12,134 nt of DNA from Candidatus Woesearchaeota archaeon (lineage in GTDB: Archaea; Nanobdellota; Nanobdellia; Woesearchaeales; GW2011-AR9), in contig JACPCC010000109.1 in NCBI GenBank assembly GCA_016179995.1, positions 1 to 12,134 of the forward strand. The letters run 5' to 3'. Positions 5,240-9,927 of this stretch are shown one piece after another. The position numbers were made by a program, and so were the translations under genes. The notes under the pieces were generated by a model. It searched no databases. It saw only the letters and a program-made list of their open reading frames with translations, and was not told where the DNA came from. Within the stretch, counting starts at the first letter, position 1. Every line of letters starts with the position of its first letter.

Positions 5240-6646
5240 CTAAGCCAGCATCTCATCCGTAATGATATTCACTCTGCTCTGTTCTTTCACTTTCGAACCC
5301 GTAGCAATTAAATGATTGATGCCTAGTTTCTCAGCTGAGCGAAGTAAATCAAGGTCCACTGGACCATCTAAAGCTAGAGCGTAAATTCCGCCATTCAAAC
5401 TTTTAATGGTAGAAGATAACTCACTCAAAGGAACTTTGCCTAGAACATTAAGCTTCTGGTCGAAAATACAAGCTCCCCTAGTACCAAAAAGATTTTCTAG
5501 AGTTTCTTTAAAAACTTTGGCTTCTTCAAGTGTGTATTTTTTATCTCTAGAGGACGCAGCAGCTGGTGCAGTTGAAACAGTAGCAGCATTAACTAAAGGC
5601 GCTGCAGGAGTGTTCATGGGTCTACCAAAATTAGACAGCCCGCTTCTTGGCGCAAAACGTCCTTTATTCTCCTCACGATTATCACGTTGCTCTCTATTAT
5701 CACGCAAATTATCCCGGTTATCGCGATTATTTCGACCGCCGCCCATAAAACGCTGCTCGCGCAAAGATGAAGCCTTACCATTGCTTTCTTCCTTCAAAGC
5801 CCCTTGGTCATCAATACCTAAGTCCATTTTGACTTGTTCAGCCGTAACTCTGCTACGTAAAGCTTTATGGATTTCTTTCTTAGTAATTTCTTCTACTTCT
5901 TTGCCATCTGGAGCTTTACAGACAAAATCTACATCAGCAGTACTTAACATTTCCCGCACGATTAATTCCCCTCCTCGATCTCCATCGACAAAGACTACCG
6001 TGTTTTTCTTGCGGCTTAATTCCTTGATACTCTGCGGAGCAGATGTTCCATTCATAGCAATGCAATTTTTGAAACCGTTTTTCAACATGTTCAAAACATC
6101 AGCACGGCCTTCCACAATGATGATTTCATCACTTTCTTCGATAGCAGGACCGGCATCAAGTCTTTCCGGACCATAAGTAACCACTTCCATTACTCTAACA
6201 GATTGAGCCACTTCATCGGCTAATTCTTGGGAATCTGGTAAAGCAGTATCATTCAGTTCTTTCAATAAAGCTTTAGCTCTTTCAATCACAAAGTGTCTTT
6301 TGCTAATACGCACATCTTCCATCTTCTTGATTTCAACTTTAGCATTACAAGGACCGATACGCTGGATAACTTCTAAAGCCGCAGCCACAATAGCTGTTTC
6401 AGTACGGTCTAAAGAACTAGGAATAACAATCTCACCATCGGTCTTACCGGAACTGGTAGCAGTATTAACTTCAATACGACCGATACGGCCGCTTCTTTGC
6501 AATTCTCTTAACTCTAAATCACTTCCGAGCAAACCTTCTGTCTGTCCAAAGATTGCCCCAATTACATCTGGTTTATCTACGATACCATCGATATGAATAC
6601 TAGCATAAACAATGTATTTTGCTGCTACTGGACTAATTTTTGCCAT
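5240..6646 (-). CDS. dnaG: Archaeal DnaG primase (TOPRIM)
   Basis: Archaeal DnaG is a TOPRIM protein with primase activity that also associates with the RNA exosome and helps it bind poly(A)-rich RNA. The 468-aa product has the conserved archaeal N-domain (residues 1-160, MAKISPVAAKYIVYASIHIDG, FGQTEGLLG). The TOPRIM domain follows at about 172-245: IIIVEGRADV with E179, and VVFVDGDRGG with D221 and D223. A disordered Arg/Asp/Asn-rich linker (about 300-335, repeated RDN units) and an Ala/Pro/Thr stretch (345-366) come next. The conserved C-domain is about 370-468. An upstream in-frame ATG at 6667 exists, but GGAGG (6651-6655) lies 4 nt before 6646 and decides the start. It is monocistronic, with TATA box 6719-6726 and a U-tract terminator. 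The low-complexity linker makes it somewhat longer than many homologues. Confidence 0.96.
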   Translation of the reverse strand: MAKISPVAAKYIVYASIHIDGIVDKPDVIGAIFGQTEGLLGSDLELRELQRSGRIGRIEVNTATSSGKTDGEIVIPSSLDRTETAIVAAALEVIQRIGPCNAKVEIKKMEDVRISKRHFVIERAKALLKELNDTALPDSQELADEVAQSVRVMEVVTYGPERLDAGPAIEESDEIIIVEGRADVLNMLKNGFKNCIAMNGTSAPQSIKELSRKKNTVVFVDGDRGGELIVREMLSTADVDFVCKAPDGKEVEEITKKEIHKALRSRVTAEQVKMDLGIDDQGALKEESNGKASSLREQRFMGGGRNNRDNRDNLRDNREQRDNREENKGRFAPRSGLSNFGRPMNTPAAPLVNAATVSTAPAAASSRDKKYTLEEAKVFKETLENLFGTRGACIFDQKLNVLGKVPLSELSSTIKSLNGGIYALALDGPVDLDLLRSAEKLGINHLIATGSKVKEQSRVNIITDEMLA

Positions 6647-6650
6647 ATTT

Positions 6651-6726
6651 CCTCCACAAAACTTCAAGAAAGAGCTGCACTAAGATGCCAAATTATACAC
6701 TGAAAGAGTTAAAATTACTATTTATA
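6651..6726 (-). promoter_or_regulatory. dnaG promoter and Shine-Dalgarno
   Basis: GGAGG (6651-6655) precedes the ATG at 6646 by 4 nt. TATAAATA (6719-6726), inside GTGTATAAATAG, predicts a transcription start near 6697 and a leader of about 50 nt. A second GTGTATAATT (6691-6700) repeats the same 8-base core and could be a second TATA box with a leader of about 24 nt. Confidence 0.6.
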
Positions 6727-6940: not shown

Positions 6941-7026
6941 AAAAAAATTGACGCCCGATCACTAACCCCCGTGACTCATTGCTTGGCAGTGCCGTAGGCT
7001 CCTACAGGTATACTCTGAGTCGGGCC
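6941..7026 (-). ncRNA. Candidate structured non-coding RNA with three-way junction
   Basis: In this A/T-rich surrounding, 44 of the 74 bases at 6953-7026 are G or C. Three helices abut with no unpaired base: 6953-6958 with 7020-7025 (GCCCGA/TCGGGC), 6959-6962 with 6971-6974 (TCAC/GTGA, 8-base loop) and 6975-6978 with 7016-7019 (CTCA/TGAG). Inside the third, 6994-6998 and 7001-7005 (GTAGG/CCTAC) and 6985-6987 and 6991-6993 can form hairpins. An alternative GACTCA/TGAGTC pairing (6973-6978 with 7016-7021) competes. Minus orientation is favoured: a TATA box at 7048-7055 is centred 27 bp before G7026, and the RNA ends in U7 (6941-6947). A T5 run at 7027-7031 leaves the plus strand possible. It does not fit tRNA, 5S, C/D or H/ACA features. 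No family recognised. Confidence 0.6.
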
Positions 7027-7045
7027 TTTTTGCTATAAAAACAGC

Positions 7046-7261: not shown

Positions 7262-7325
7262 AAAAAACCTCAGCAAACCGCACTTGCGTACAGCCTGCCG
7301 AGGAAAAGAGGTGTTTTGAGGTGTT
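7262..7325 (-). ncRNA. Candidate small hairpin RNA with U6 tail
   Basis: On the minus strand CCUCGGCA (7303-7296) pairs with UGCUGAGG (7275-7268) as a continuous 8-bp stem including one G-U pair. On plus the same position is an A-C mismatch, so minus is the likely sense. The interior holds a short CGC-AAGU-GCG hairpin (within 7280-7289). The stem is followed directly by UUUUUU (7267-7262). A TATA box at 7346-7357 predicts a minus-strand start near 7325, giving about 64 nt. The 5' part contains two CACCUC motifs. No gene upstream on this strand needs a terminator here, so an independent small RNA is plausible. It lacks an ACA box. Confidence 0.42.
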
Positions 7326-7345
7326 TGTTACTCAAAAGTGAGGAC

Positions 7346-7357
7346 TTATATATAAAT
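7346..7357. promoter_or_regulatory. Bidirectional TATA box
   Basis: TTATATATAAAT is nearly symmetric. On minus it would start the hairpin RNA near 7325. On plus it would start a transcript near 7378, giving the PolB-like gene a long leader of about 138 nt as an alternative to its proximal promoter. Confidence 0.4.
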
Positions 7358-7417
7358 CTTTCGGTGAGTTGTTACTTTACAGTGGTTTAGAGGAGTAGTT
7401 ATAACTTATAATTCCTC

Positions 7418-7515: not shown

Positions 7516-9927
7516 ATGCCAAAATATTACATCACCCACGTTGAGCCATTACACCCATTAAAAGGAGAAGAAGTACTATTTTTTATCCGTGAGAAAGAAG
7601 AAAATAAACCTGGAAAAACGCATCTTCATCTGGCTAAGATTCCCCATAGATTTTATACTAAACCGCTAGAAGGGGGAGAAGCTTTTAAAATTAATGAAGA
7701 ATTGAAAAGAGACTTTCCAAATAGACAATTATACCACCAGCAATTTACCCACAAAACAGTTACTTTAAGCTTAAGAGGATCAAAAGAAGAACGTAAAATT
7801 CTTCCCGAACCATTTATATGTAAAAAAGACTCTTTAGATAAACGAGATCCTTTTCACCTAAATTCTCCATCGAGACAATTACGCTGGCTCTATACTCCCT
7901 TTACTCAACTTGACTCACTCACAGACATAACCTATTATCCAAATGAAGAAAAAGAGAGAAAACTAATAGATTTAGAAACCTTACTGCAAGACACACATGC
8001 CACCATTGATTTAGAACTAGAAAATTGGGAAATGGGAAAAGACCAGATCTCACAAGTGATTTACCTCTCTACAAAAAGGAAAATTATTTTTCATAACTTG
8101 CCATTCGATGAAGAAAAAAAAGAGGACTGCATTTTGCAACGCTTCACTACACAACAAGATTTGGGAGAAAAATTAAGTCAAGTAATTGCTGAAGATGATC
8201 CACTTTGGCTCTTTGGCCATAATTTAATGGCTTTCGACCAGATTAAATTAAGAAAATTAACCACCAATTATTATCCAGCACCTAATCATCATTACCCAAT
8301 TACGAAGAGCGCTGCAGCTCTACGTCGTGTAATTACAAAAGGCCGCTGGACGCTAGATACTTTTGGTTATCATTTTAACTACCGCAATTTATTATCCAAT
8401 AACCGTTTAGAAACTATAAGTGGTTTACTAAAATCAATTAATTACCAAGAACAAGCTGATCTGATTAAAAAAGCACGTCAAGGCAATGCTGCTGCATTTC
8501 ATTCTCTTTTGCATTATCTATATGAAGATGGACTTTATGCCCAAAAAGCAGCTTTAGAAGTGTTAGAAACTGCTGCAGCTAAAGCACGTTATTTTCGCCG
8601 TGCTCCAGATGACATCTGTACTGCTTCTCCTAAAACAATTAGCGAAGAATATTGGGATAGACACTATTTTTTAAAGCGAGGAAATTATAATTTAAGAAAC
8701 GCAGCCAAAAAATCTAGACAAAGAACAGCAGACCAAACAGAACCAAATTATATAGAAGAATTAACCGACAGCTTATCCGCAGGTCAATTACAAAAAGGCT
8801 TTTTTTCAGAAGGAATATCAGTTATTTATCTTACTCCTTTACTGGCAGGAAGTGCTTCTCTAGTTGAGAAAATGGCGCCAGATATTTCTACAAAATTTAA
8901 ACAAAGCACTAATTCGTTAGAAAAATATGATTGTCTACGCACTTTAGAATATTTGCTATATCCATTTTTAGAAATAATCTTTACCGCAGAAGAAAATAAA
9001 GAACAAGAGATATTAAAACCATCAAAACTTAAAGACCAATTTCAATTATCTCCTAACTTGCAAAAAAAAATATCCTCTACTTTTTACTCTACAGGTTTAG
9101 AAGAAATTGACGCTTACAATTGGATTAAAGGCTTAAAACTGGCGCTGGAGCAATCTCAAAAAGCTTTGCACAGCCATAATTTAATTAATTACGGAGGCAG
9201 TTTAGTCTTCATAAATGGAGAGATTAACTACACTAAACTGGAACAAAATTATTTTGGCACTTATTTGGGGCAAGGTCCTGCCCTGTCTCTGAACCGTAAT
9301 AGAATAGTAGCTAATCCATTTAACGAATCCAATCCTGCGCGTTTTCTCTACCAAAGCTTAGATATACAATCTGGAGGAAAGACTAATTTTGAAAAAAGAA
9401 TATATTCAGAAGCTATAAAAAAAATATTTTCTAAAGAATCAATCTTAAATGTATCTTCTTTCTTAAGAACAGAACAAAAACAATTTATTAGAGGAAAAGC
9501 AGAAGAAAAAGCTTATCACATTAGTCGTGGAAGACGCACGTACTATAAAAATCAACTAGGCAATCTATTAGAGTTTAGCGGTCAAAAACCAGAGATTATA
9601 GAATCTTATCTAAACCTAAAACCACGCATCACTTCCACAATGAGCGATGAAACTAAAGAAGAATTAATTGAATTAATTGAACTCTGTCAAAACACATATG
9701 CTTACCCCTATCTAAAAGAAGAATGTTTGGAACAAATCTTAAATCCATATCCGCAAAAGATAGAGTTAGTATATGATCTGGCATGTAAAGGAGAATTGAT
9801 TCCTAAAGAATTATCTAGTGCACCAGACTTAGCAGCTTACCGAGATAAAATAACACCACTATTTAAAGAATTTATTGGTGCTTTACGACCGAGGCAAATG
9901 GATTTATTTGAAAAAAGTGGAGAGTAA
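7516..9927 (+). CDS. B-family DNA polymerase homologue, exonuclease intact, polymerase site lost
   Basis: The 803-aa length and order match archaeal PolB: N-terminal domain (1-150), 3'-5' exonuclease (about 155-360), then palm, fingers and thumb. The exonuclease motifs appear complete: Exo I TIDLELE with D165 and E167, Exo II GHNLMAFD with N236 and D241, Exo III YLYED with Y334 and D338. The following segment (about 364-391) still aligns by eye with the PolB region after the exonuclease. Where motif A (DxxSLYPS) should be, 436-447 reads IYLTPLLAGSAS, with T440 in place of aspartate. Where YGDTDS (motif C) should be, 559-562 reads YGGS. The motif B region near 515-527 (QKKISSTFYSTG) is weak. 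No frameshift is visible. Polymerisation is therefore unlikely; a proofreading, structural or regulatory role is inferred. A family of inactivated archaeal PolB paralogues is known, and this may be a diverged relative. The C-terminus has QMDLF (794-798). Confidence 0.85.
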   Translation: MPKYYITHVEPLHPLKGEEVLFFIREKEENKPGKTHLHLAKIPHRFYTKPLEGGEAFKINEELKRDFPNRQLYHQQFTHKTVTLSLRGSKEERKILPEPFICKKDSLDKRDPFHLNSPSRQLRWLYTPFTQLDSLTDITYYPNEEKERKLIDLETLLQDTHATIDLELENWEMGKDQISQVIYLSTKRKIIFHNLPFDEEKKEDCILQRFTTQQDLGEKLSQVIAEDDPLWLFGHNLMAFDQIKLRKLTTNYYPAPNHHYPITKSAAALRRVITKGRWTLDTFGYHFNYRNLLSNNRLETISGLLKSINYQEQADLIKKARQGNAAAFHSLLHYLYEDGLYAQKAALEVLETAAAKARYFRRAPDDICTASPKTISEEYWDRHYFLKRGNYNLRNAAKKSRQRTADQTEPNYIEELTDSLSAGQLQKGFFSEGISVIYLTPLLAGSASLVEKMAPDISTKFKQSTNSLEKYDCLRTLEYLLYPFLEIIFTAEENKEQEILKPSKLKDQFQLSPNLQKKISSTFYSTGLEEIDAYNWIKGLKLALEQSQKALHSHNLINYGGSLVFINGEINYTKLEQNYFGTYLGQGPALSLNRNRIVANPFNESNPARFLYQSLDIQSGGKTNFEKRIYSEAIKKIFSKESILNVSSFLRTEQKQFIRGKAEEKAYHISRGRRTYYKNQLGNLLEFSGQKPEIIESYLNLKPRITSTMSDETKEELIELIELCQNTYAYPYLKEECLEQILNPYPQKIELVYDLACKGELIPKELSSAPDLAAYRDKITPLFKEFIGALRPRQMDLFEKSGE

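Follow-up and report, generated by a model that had tools for sequence, protein, structure and literature searches.

Analysis of a 12,134-nucleotide stretch of a Candidatus Woesearchaeota contig (JACPCC010000109.1; hereafter the window) revealed a gene for a family B DNA polymerase (PolB) homologue that keeps its exonuclease site and has lost its polymerase site. This gene is listed with its parts in Table 1; its source genome comprises 0.87 Mb in 131 contigs and is 77% complete. With moderate confidence, we propose that the exo-only PolB has become a 3'-5' exonuclease dedicated to the processing of DNA ends, tethered to the sliding clamp and ancestrally working with a nuclease partner. More tentatively, we suggest an undescribed system of Nanoarchaeota in which a polymerase-dead, exonuclease-live PolB and a Cas4/AddB-like Fe-S nuclease would form a helicase-free, clamp-tethered machine for end resection or flap trimming, the window lineage being reduced to the PolB half.

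A first-pass annotation, made from the letters alone, had described the gene as intact and full-length. This held: the 803 codons contain no internal stop, and 20 other homologues of 770–834 amino acids aligned with the product. Gene decay was ruled out by the intact open reading frame (ORF) and because the homologues are themselves full-length. The AlphaFold2 (AF2) model and structure comparison gave the window protein a full-length PolB fold, with N-terminal, exonuclease, palm, fingers and thumb domains over ~750–800 residues; its tail (residues 797–803) has a predicted local distance difference test (pLDDT) score below 50. At the level of single proteins, sequence evidence for PolB homology was weak. 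The protein P0001 had no PolB match in Pfam, no match in NCBIfam, PADLOC or PDB (phmmer), and in PHROGs a weak holin match alone (E 0.26); for P0017, PHROGs gave a match to 'DNA polymerase exonuclease subunit' (0.015). With matches listed to a maximum E of 1, PF00136 matched 3 of 21 members (best E 0.011) and PF03104 matched 2 of 21 (best 0.0033). The hhalign match to 30 active PolBs was weak (E 0.0089, probability 4.5%), whereas the wider family profile recovered the exonuclease domains of active PolBs (that of G022 at 2.4e-22). We consider the homology settled by the fold together with the wider family profile.

The exonuclease site is strictly conserved among close relatives. Searching 5.8 billion proteins yielded 22 family members including the window protein, all unnamed or 'hypothetical', and a repeat search with the members' alignment recovered the same 22. 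In the alignment of 21 close members (A1, from which the partial P0022 was excluded), D165, E167, N236, D241, D281, Y334 and D338 are invariant in all 21. The motifs named in the first pass, Exo I (D165/E167), Exo II (N236/D241) and Exo III (Y334/D338), are thus all present, and their acids do not vary in these close homologues. Of the seven regions compared, mean pairwise identity over 20 proteins is highest in the exonuclease domain (0.55) and lowest in the fingers-like region (0.33); the truncated P0002 was excluded from these means and from the C-terminal counts given below. Because the site is of the DEDDy type, exonuclease chemistry is predicted, and we infer a 3'-5' exonuclease activity of the window protein from its sequence.

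We compared the palm with that of 50 active PolBs, a non-random set of the 30 best-scoring usable proteins, the window genome's own enzyme and others picked, using MAFFT in localpair and genafpair modes. In both modes, the D-F-R of motif A lies opposite a three-residue gap between I437 and Y438. The first pass had placed T440 at the motif A aspartate; that aspartate falls in the gap instead, and T440 replaces the tyrosine of the motif. Motif C does read 'YGGS' (residues 559–562): in localpair mode, the Y-S-D-T-D-S of the active enzymes is set against N558-Y-G560-G-S562-L, with DTD becoming G560-G561-S562 and its tyrosine N558. Motif B (KxxxNSxYG) is not recognisable. The motif A segment is missing and neither aspartate of motif C remains; the polymerase site is thus lost, as had been claimed, and by its sequence the window protein appears to have none of the marks of a polymerase enzyme (motif A aspartate, motif B, motif C DTD). 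No acid outside the exonuclease domain is invariant in the wider alignment A3, described below. The register fits the predicted secondary structure (strand 428–439 and strands 555–560 and 563–567 in the AF2 model). It is unstable in places: motif C was misplaced by genafpair, and Exo I came out shifted by two residues in either mode, a register that hhalign and the invariance of D165/E167 settled.

The exo-only PolBs are apparently an undescribed family; no exonuclease-only PolB family appears in the titles and abstract openings of the open-licence PubMed Central (PMC) papers listed by our literature searches. A1 matched 19 of 193 genomes of the order and missed divergent members that were found only by later profiles (G203, G060, G098, G163, G090 and G086). 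A3 combines 16 divergent with five close members at a mean column identity of 18%. Seven of its columns are invariant (L107, D166, E168, D289, D330, Y397 and D401), and three others are conserved in at least 90% (N284, L347 and K369); six of the seven correspond to D281 and to residues of Exo I, II and III. Across the phylum, A3 matched 325 of 371 genomes, the majority of these matches being active PolB exonuclease domains, judging by the profile range in the matches listed. Matches below 1e-30 occurred in 36 genomes, some of which were inspected; none of the active PolBs examined had a match at that level in the same list. Ten ORFs from this search (L197–L206) match none of the motif A, DTD and KxxxNSxYG patterns. 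Six of the ten have the full D-E-N-D-D-Y-D set, as do 14 other divergent members of the same wide alignment; L197 lacks the Exo I part, and the Asn column holds a gap in L198, F in L201 and K in L205. The wide alignments omit L056, L057 and L059, and L045, whose sequence contains a stretch of N, is absent from A2, A3 and A6 for that reason. In a tree of the exonuclease domain (193 columns, quick method), one branch divides 49 exo-only from 50 active proteins with a Shimodaira–Hasegawa-like approximate likelihood-ratio test (SH-aLRT) value of 99; the tree is unrooted and has long branches, and its active set comes from this order alone.

Many divergent exo-only members lie head-to-head with a gene encoding a protein of ~665–860 amino acids, sometimes split in two. 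In all ten aligned nucleases of this kind, C446, G468, H472, E504, D522, D535-x-K537, Q549, Y553, C650, C653 and C659 are invariant, residues that we take to be the signature of Cas4/AddB-type iron-sulphur (Fe-S) PD-(D/E)XK nucleases: GxxxH, D, (D/E)xK, QxxxY and four cysteines were found in 10 of 10. Cas4, RecB, AddB and Dna2 are homologous (PMC5704561; here and below, PMC sources are cited for the excerpts available). Pfam PDDEXK_1 was detected below the cut-off in two of six partner nucleases tested (E 0.0014 and 0.041), the Cas4 match was weak, and two partner proteins found later carry precomputed PF12705. For the N-terminal part, AF2 runs on two sequences gave no reliable fold (pLDDT 30). 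In six genomes the partner is split into two adjacent ORFs, holding the N-terminal and the nuclease parts (L144, L145, L146, L245, L246 and L247).

Two profiles of the partner, A2 and A6, were used to count the pairing. In the order sample A2 matched 18 of 193 genomes, five of them weakly over ~50–70 residues. For each of the other 13, the direct divergent neighbour is an exo-only PolB homologue; six of the 13 had supplied A2, two (G099 and G148) were A1 matches whose neighbour was matched afterwards, and five were found by A2 alone. In the phylum sample A6 matched 15 of 371 genomes, namely eight known, six new and the weak match in G070. All six new genomes have the nuclease adjacent and divergent and a homologue without the DTD pattern; in G281 the A6 match lies in the adjacent ORF, though a local hmmsearch at 1e-4 did not list that ORF. 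The weak ~50–70-residue matches to A2 or A6 (G003, G035, G070, G131 and G173) were not counted as partners, and the palms of the homologues in G060 and G090 were not judged because the contig end cuts them at 250 and 572 amino acids, respectively. The pairing totals 19 genomes. These searches under-report, since A6 apparently missed G086, which A2 had found, and A1 missed G203. The head-to-head arrangement implies joint nucleolysis in these relatives.

A possible mechanism follows the fold. The conserved PolB body implies DNA binding; it would hold a DNA end and direct the 3' strand to the exonuclease, in the way that ordinary PolBs edit, and because the protein cannot synthesise, this editing mode would be permanent. 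A short QxxLF-type motif at the C terminus may tether the protein to the sliding clamp. Within the final 25 residues, the pattern Q..[LM][FLAVW] is present in 11 of the 20 close members and in 6 of the 17 distant ones, with 8 of 442 as the control among other mechanically called ORFs of at least 150 amino acids from the same loci, some of them overlapping. QxxLF is a bacterial clamp-binding motif (PMC12926913). Ancestrally, together with the nuclease partner, DNA ends or flaps may have been trimmed or resected; the window's branch would then have lost the partner and could work alone or with another host nuclease.

Several observations weigh against this proposal. The clamp-motif pattern was chosen post hoc, after the sequences had been inspected, and the active PolB of the same genome ends differently, in a PIP-like KQTGLGSYF, whose QTGLGSYF we liken to the PCNA-interacting protein (PIP) consensus. 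The window genome (G000, 77% complete) has no A2 or A6 match, and the other close-subfamily loci examined are likewise without a nuclease partner, so the pairing is evidence about relatives. A1 matched 12 of the 40 genomes of the family defined by GTDB, two of the 12 being weak and unchecked; such patchy occurrence says that the function is dispensable. The close-family neighbours (dnaG, RIO1 and KH) are partly RNA-related. PolB2, moreover, was likewise called inactive from its motifs, yet proved active (PMC8764526).

In the window, the exo-only PolB gene adjoins dnaG. Across seven close-family loci, a divergent dnaG lies within 3 kb upstream in six (immediately adjacent in L035, L036, L038 and L040), and a RIO1 kinase gene lies directly downstream in five, followed by a KH protein (next but one in L037) and topoisomerase VI genes. 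Pfam supplied the RIO1 and KH labels, from a single representative, and the Toprim label of the window dnaG; topoisomerase VI and HerA were labelled by eye and the rest by BLAST similarity. We also compared 20 dnaG regions of the GTDB family, a set that overlaps the first (G201, G210, G215 and G226 are apparently L040, L036, L041 and L035). Six contain the exo-only PolB, 13 have dnaG and RIO1 without it, some of these with other small ORFs between the two, and in one (G199) the gene is on a different contig from the dnaG region. The gene therefore sits in a variable slot of a conserved chromosomal site; in G118 and G203 the same slot holds divergent homologues.

The dnaG ORF itself has a listed start (TTG, 6667) that is probably 21 bases too far upstream, as many relatives begin MAKISPVAAKYIV (6646). 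Two elements are conserved in the same ten dnaG intergenic regions, five with and five without the exo-only gene. The first, of ~85 nt with GCCCG...CGGGC ends (6949–7034), looks like a structured RNA; its consensus fold has 16 pairs, three of them with two-sided change, a weak covariation. We rejected the idea that the gap 5' of the exo-only gene holds a known RNA gene, as no Rfam match was found there, and six whole loci contained only one tRNA, elsewhere. The second element (~7285–7389) holds, on the minus strand towards dnaG, a sequence resembling a TFB-recognition element (BRE) and TATA box, CCGAAAG...TTTATATA, and then two CACCTC repeats. These resemble the 16S anti-Shine-Dalgarno sequence, and the element is perhaps the dnaG promoter and leader; both readings were made by eye.

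The first pass had proposed a stand-alone subunit for proofreading or DNA-end processing beside an active polymerase. End processing is the better half of this proposal, a reading also favoured by the head-to-head nuclease of the wider family. Proofreading in trans at the fork, on behalf of the active PolB or of PolD and in the manner of DnaQ epsilon with bacterial Pol III, would suit the intact exonuclease site, the clamp-like motif and the second, active-looking PolB that was found elsewhere in the window genome (L001), as the first pass had suggested looking for. It is disfavoured because active PolBs retain an exonuclease site of their own: all 50 have the D, Y and D of Exo II and III, and 49 have Exo I, the exception being a fragment; for 16 of them, an exo-only homologue was scored in the same genome. 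In addition, 28 of 40 family genomes have no A1 match, though G203 has a divergent member, and PF00136 is present in 179 of the 193 genomes of the order. Conversely, G075 and G098 (95% and 97% complete) hold the exo-only gene and its nuclease neighbour, yet the PF00136 search there was empty. We therefore regard in-trans proofreading as unlikely. As a separate observation, the Exo II asparagine is Phe or Tyr in 33 of these 50 active PolBs of the order (GYFSDGFD type), Asn in 16 and Ser in one; the exo-only proteins mostly retain it.

A role as a 3'-5' exoribonuclease that acts together with the exosome, DnaG or RNase J is no likelier. This RNA reading stays among the alternatives on account of dnaG and RIO1, whose placement beside the gene was described above; archaeal DnaG is an exosome subunit (PMC4227792), and RNase J-like genes, labelled by eye, lie near some distant members. 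However, 13 of the 20 family dnaG regions do without the gene, which marks it as a passenger at a housekeeping site that is itself conserved; in other places it adjoins a DNA-type nuclease, PCNA is near the L051 and L054 members, and the fold is that of a DNA-binding PolB.

A slightly more doubtful alternative is a defence or anti-mobile-element nuclease module, to which patchy, fast-diverging genes in one chromosomal slot and a Cas4-like partner in relatives would be suited. Against it, PADLOC recognised none of six exo-only proteins tested, the locus is syntenic with core genes, and no toxin, modification or sensor gene was noticed in the neighbourhood, where a minority of the genes were scanned. 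Viral contigs scanned with A1 gave 109 matched stretches and no confirmed relative (distant members were not sought there), and a viral origin was rejected on the same ground.

A scaffold with both activities silent, like the C-terminal half of Pol epsilon, has known precedent (PMC7544198, PMC2669801) and is improbable here, given that six of the seven invariant A3 columns are catalytic-type residues of the exonuclease domain. Least credible of all is continued polymerisation through substitute acids, as in PolB2 (PMC8764526): E469, D472, E576 and E626, in the palm and later regions, are kept in the close family, and close to the first position of motif C a distant subgroup carries Glu or Asp, but A3 has no invariant acid outside the exonuclease domain, and the motif A segment and both motif C aspartates are lost.

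Table 1. Features of the window and the evidence for each (MAFFT, alignment with active PolBs)
Feature	Position	Strand	Evidence
Archaeal dnaG, divergent neighbour	5240..6667	-	Toprim; synteny; conserved family start at 6646
Exo-only PolB gene	7516..9927	+	803 codons (coordinates include stop), ATG start, no internal stop; AF2 model; structure comparison
Predicted DEDDy 3'-5' exonuclease domain	7990..8550	+	Residues ~159–345; boundaries approximate, from alignment and model
Exo I, D165-x-E167	8008..8016	+	Invariant in A1 (21/21); equivalents invariant in A3
Exo II, N236 ... D241	8221..8238	+	Invariant in A1 (21/21); in A3 Asp invariant, Asn at least 90%
D281, exonuclease-domain Asp, also in active PolBs	8356..8358	+	A1, A3, active-PolB alignment
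Exo III, Y334 ... D338	8515..8529	+	Invariant in A1 (21/21); equivalents invariant in A3
Palm motif A remnant, residues 428–446	8797..8853	+	Catalytic Asp missing (MAFFT); AF2 strand 428–439, helix 441–445
Fingers-like region, residues 471–545	8926..9150	+	Mean pairwise identity 0.33; motif B not recognisable
Palm motif C remnant, N-Y-G-G-S 558–562	9187..9201	+	MAFFT; AF2 strands 555–560, 563–567
KGxE-like element and thumb-like region, residues ~616–790	9361..9885	+	Weak collinear patch with Pol II 618–678; hhalign; AF2 model
C-terminal QMDLF 794–798, putatively clamp-binding	9895..9909	+	Motif pattern

Among the closest known systems is PolB2, the established 'inactivated archaeal PolB' to which the first pass had linked the gene. 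Both are full-length PolB paralogues with an altered motif C and a patchy distribution (PMC2527604, PMC4104785, PMC8764526). The pattern, however, is opposite. In PolB2 the exonuclease is disrupted, with Exo I and Exo III lost and the distal motif C aspartate kept (PMC2527604), and its member Dpo2 is a robust polymerase without exonuclease (PMC8764526). Another mark of PolB2 is an operon with arCOG07300 and an inactivated RadA. The window protein, in contrast, keeps all exonuclease motifs, has lost the three palm aspartates and carries S562 at the distal motif C position. The exo-only family is a mirror image of PolB2, and the link drawn to it in the first pass is not supported.

The best named matches, all weak, are to E. 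coli Pol II and the Pol II-like clade (PDB, E 0.031; for P0017, the NCBIfam family DNA polymerase II at E 1.9e-4, well short of the cut-off), and archaeal PolBs and Pol II rank close together in the structure comparison. That clade includes the archaeal group B7 of Woesearchaeota and Pacearchaeota (PMC7544198); unlike the window protein, E. coli Pol II is an active polymerase. The inactivated C-terminal module of Pol epsilon, poxvirus F12 and herpesvirus UL8 share a PolB fold with a lost polymerase site and, in the excerpts cited, are not described as dedicated exonucleases; in F12 the exonuclease is probably inactivated too, with residual activity possible (PMC7544198, PMC4304020). DnaQ-type stand-alone proofreaders resemble the exo-only PolBs in placing the exonuclease outside the polymerising polypeptide. 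DnaQ is a small protein. It is of the DEDDh type (PMC12926913), whereas the window protein bears a DEDDy site on a whole PolB body. The partner nuclease, in turn, resembles the AddB, RecB, Cas4 and Dna2 Fe-S nucleases in its GxxxH, D, DxK, QxxxY and four cysteines (PMC5704561). It differs from them in pairing with an exo-only PolB and in having ~400 N-terminal residues outside the recognised nuclease signature; in AddB and RecB the N-terminal part is helicase-derived.

In replicative polymerases, a single body carries out both synthesis and editing. The PolB paralogues compared here that underwent natural losses gave up the editing site or, probably, both sites. A group that keeps only editing, on an entire polymerase body, would be a natural separation of the two activities and would show that a PolB scaffold is able to function purely as an exonuclease; with the head-to-head nuclease of its relatives, it offers a testable proposal for DNA-end processing in DPANN archaea.
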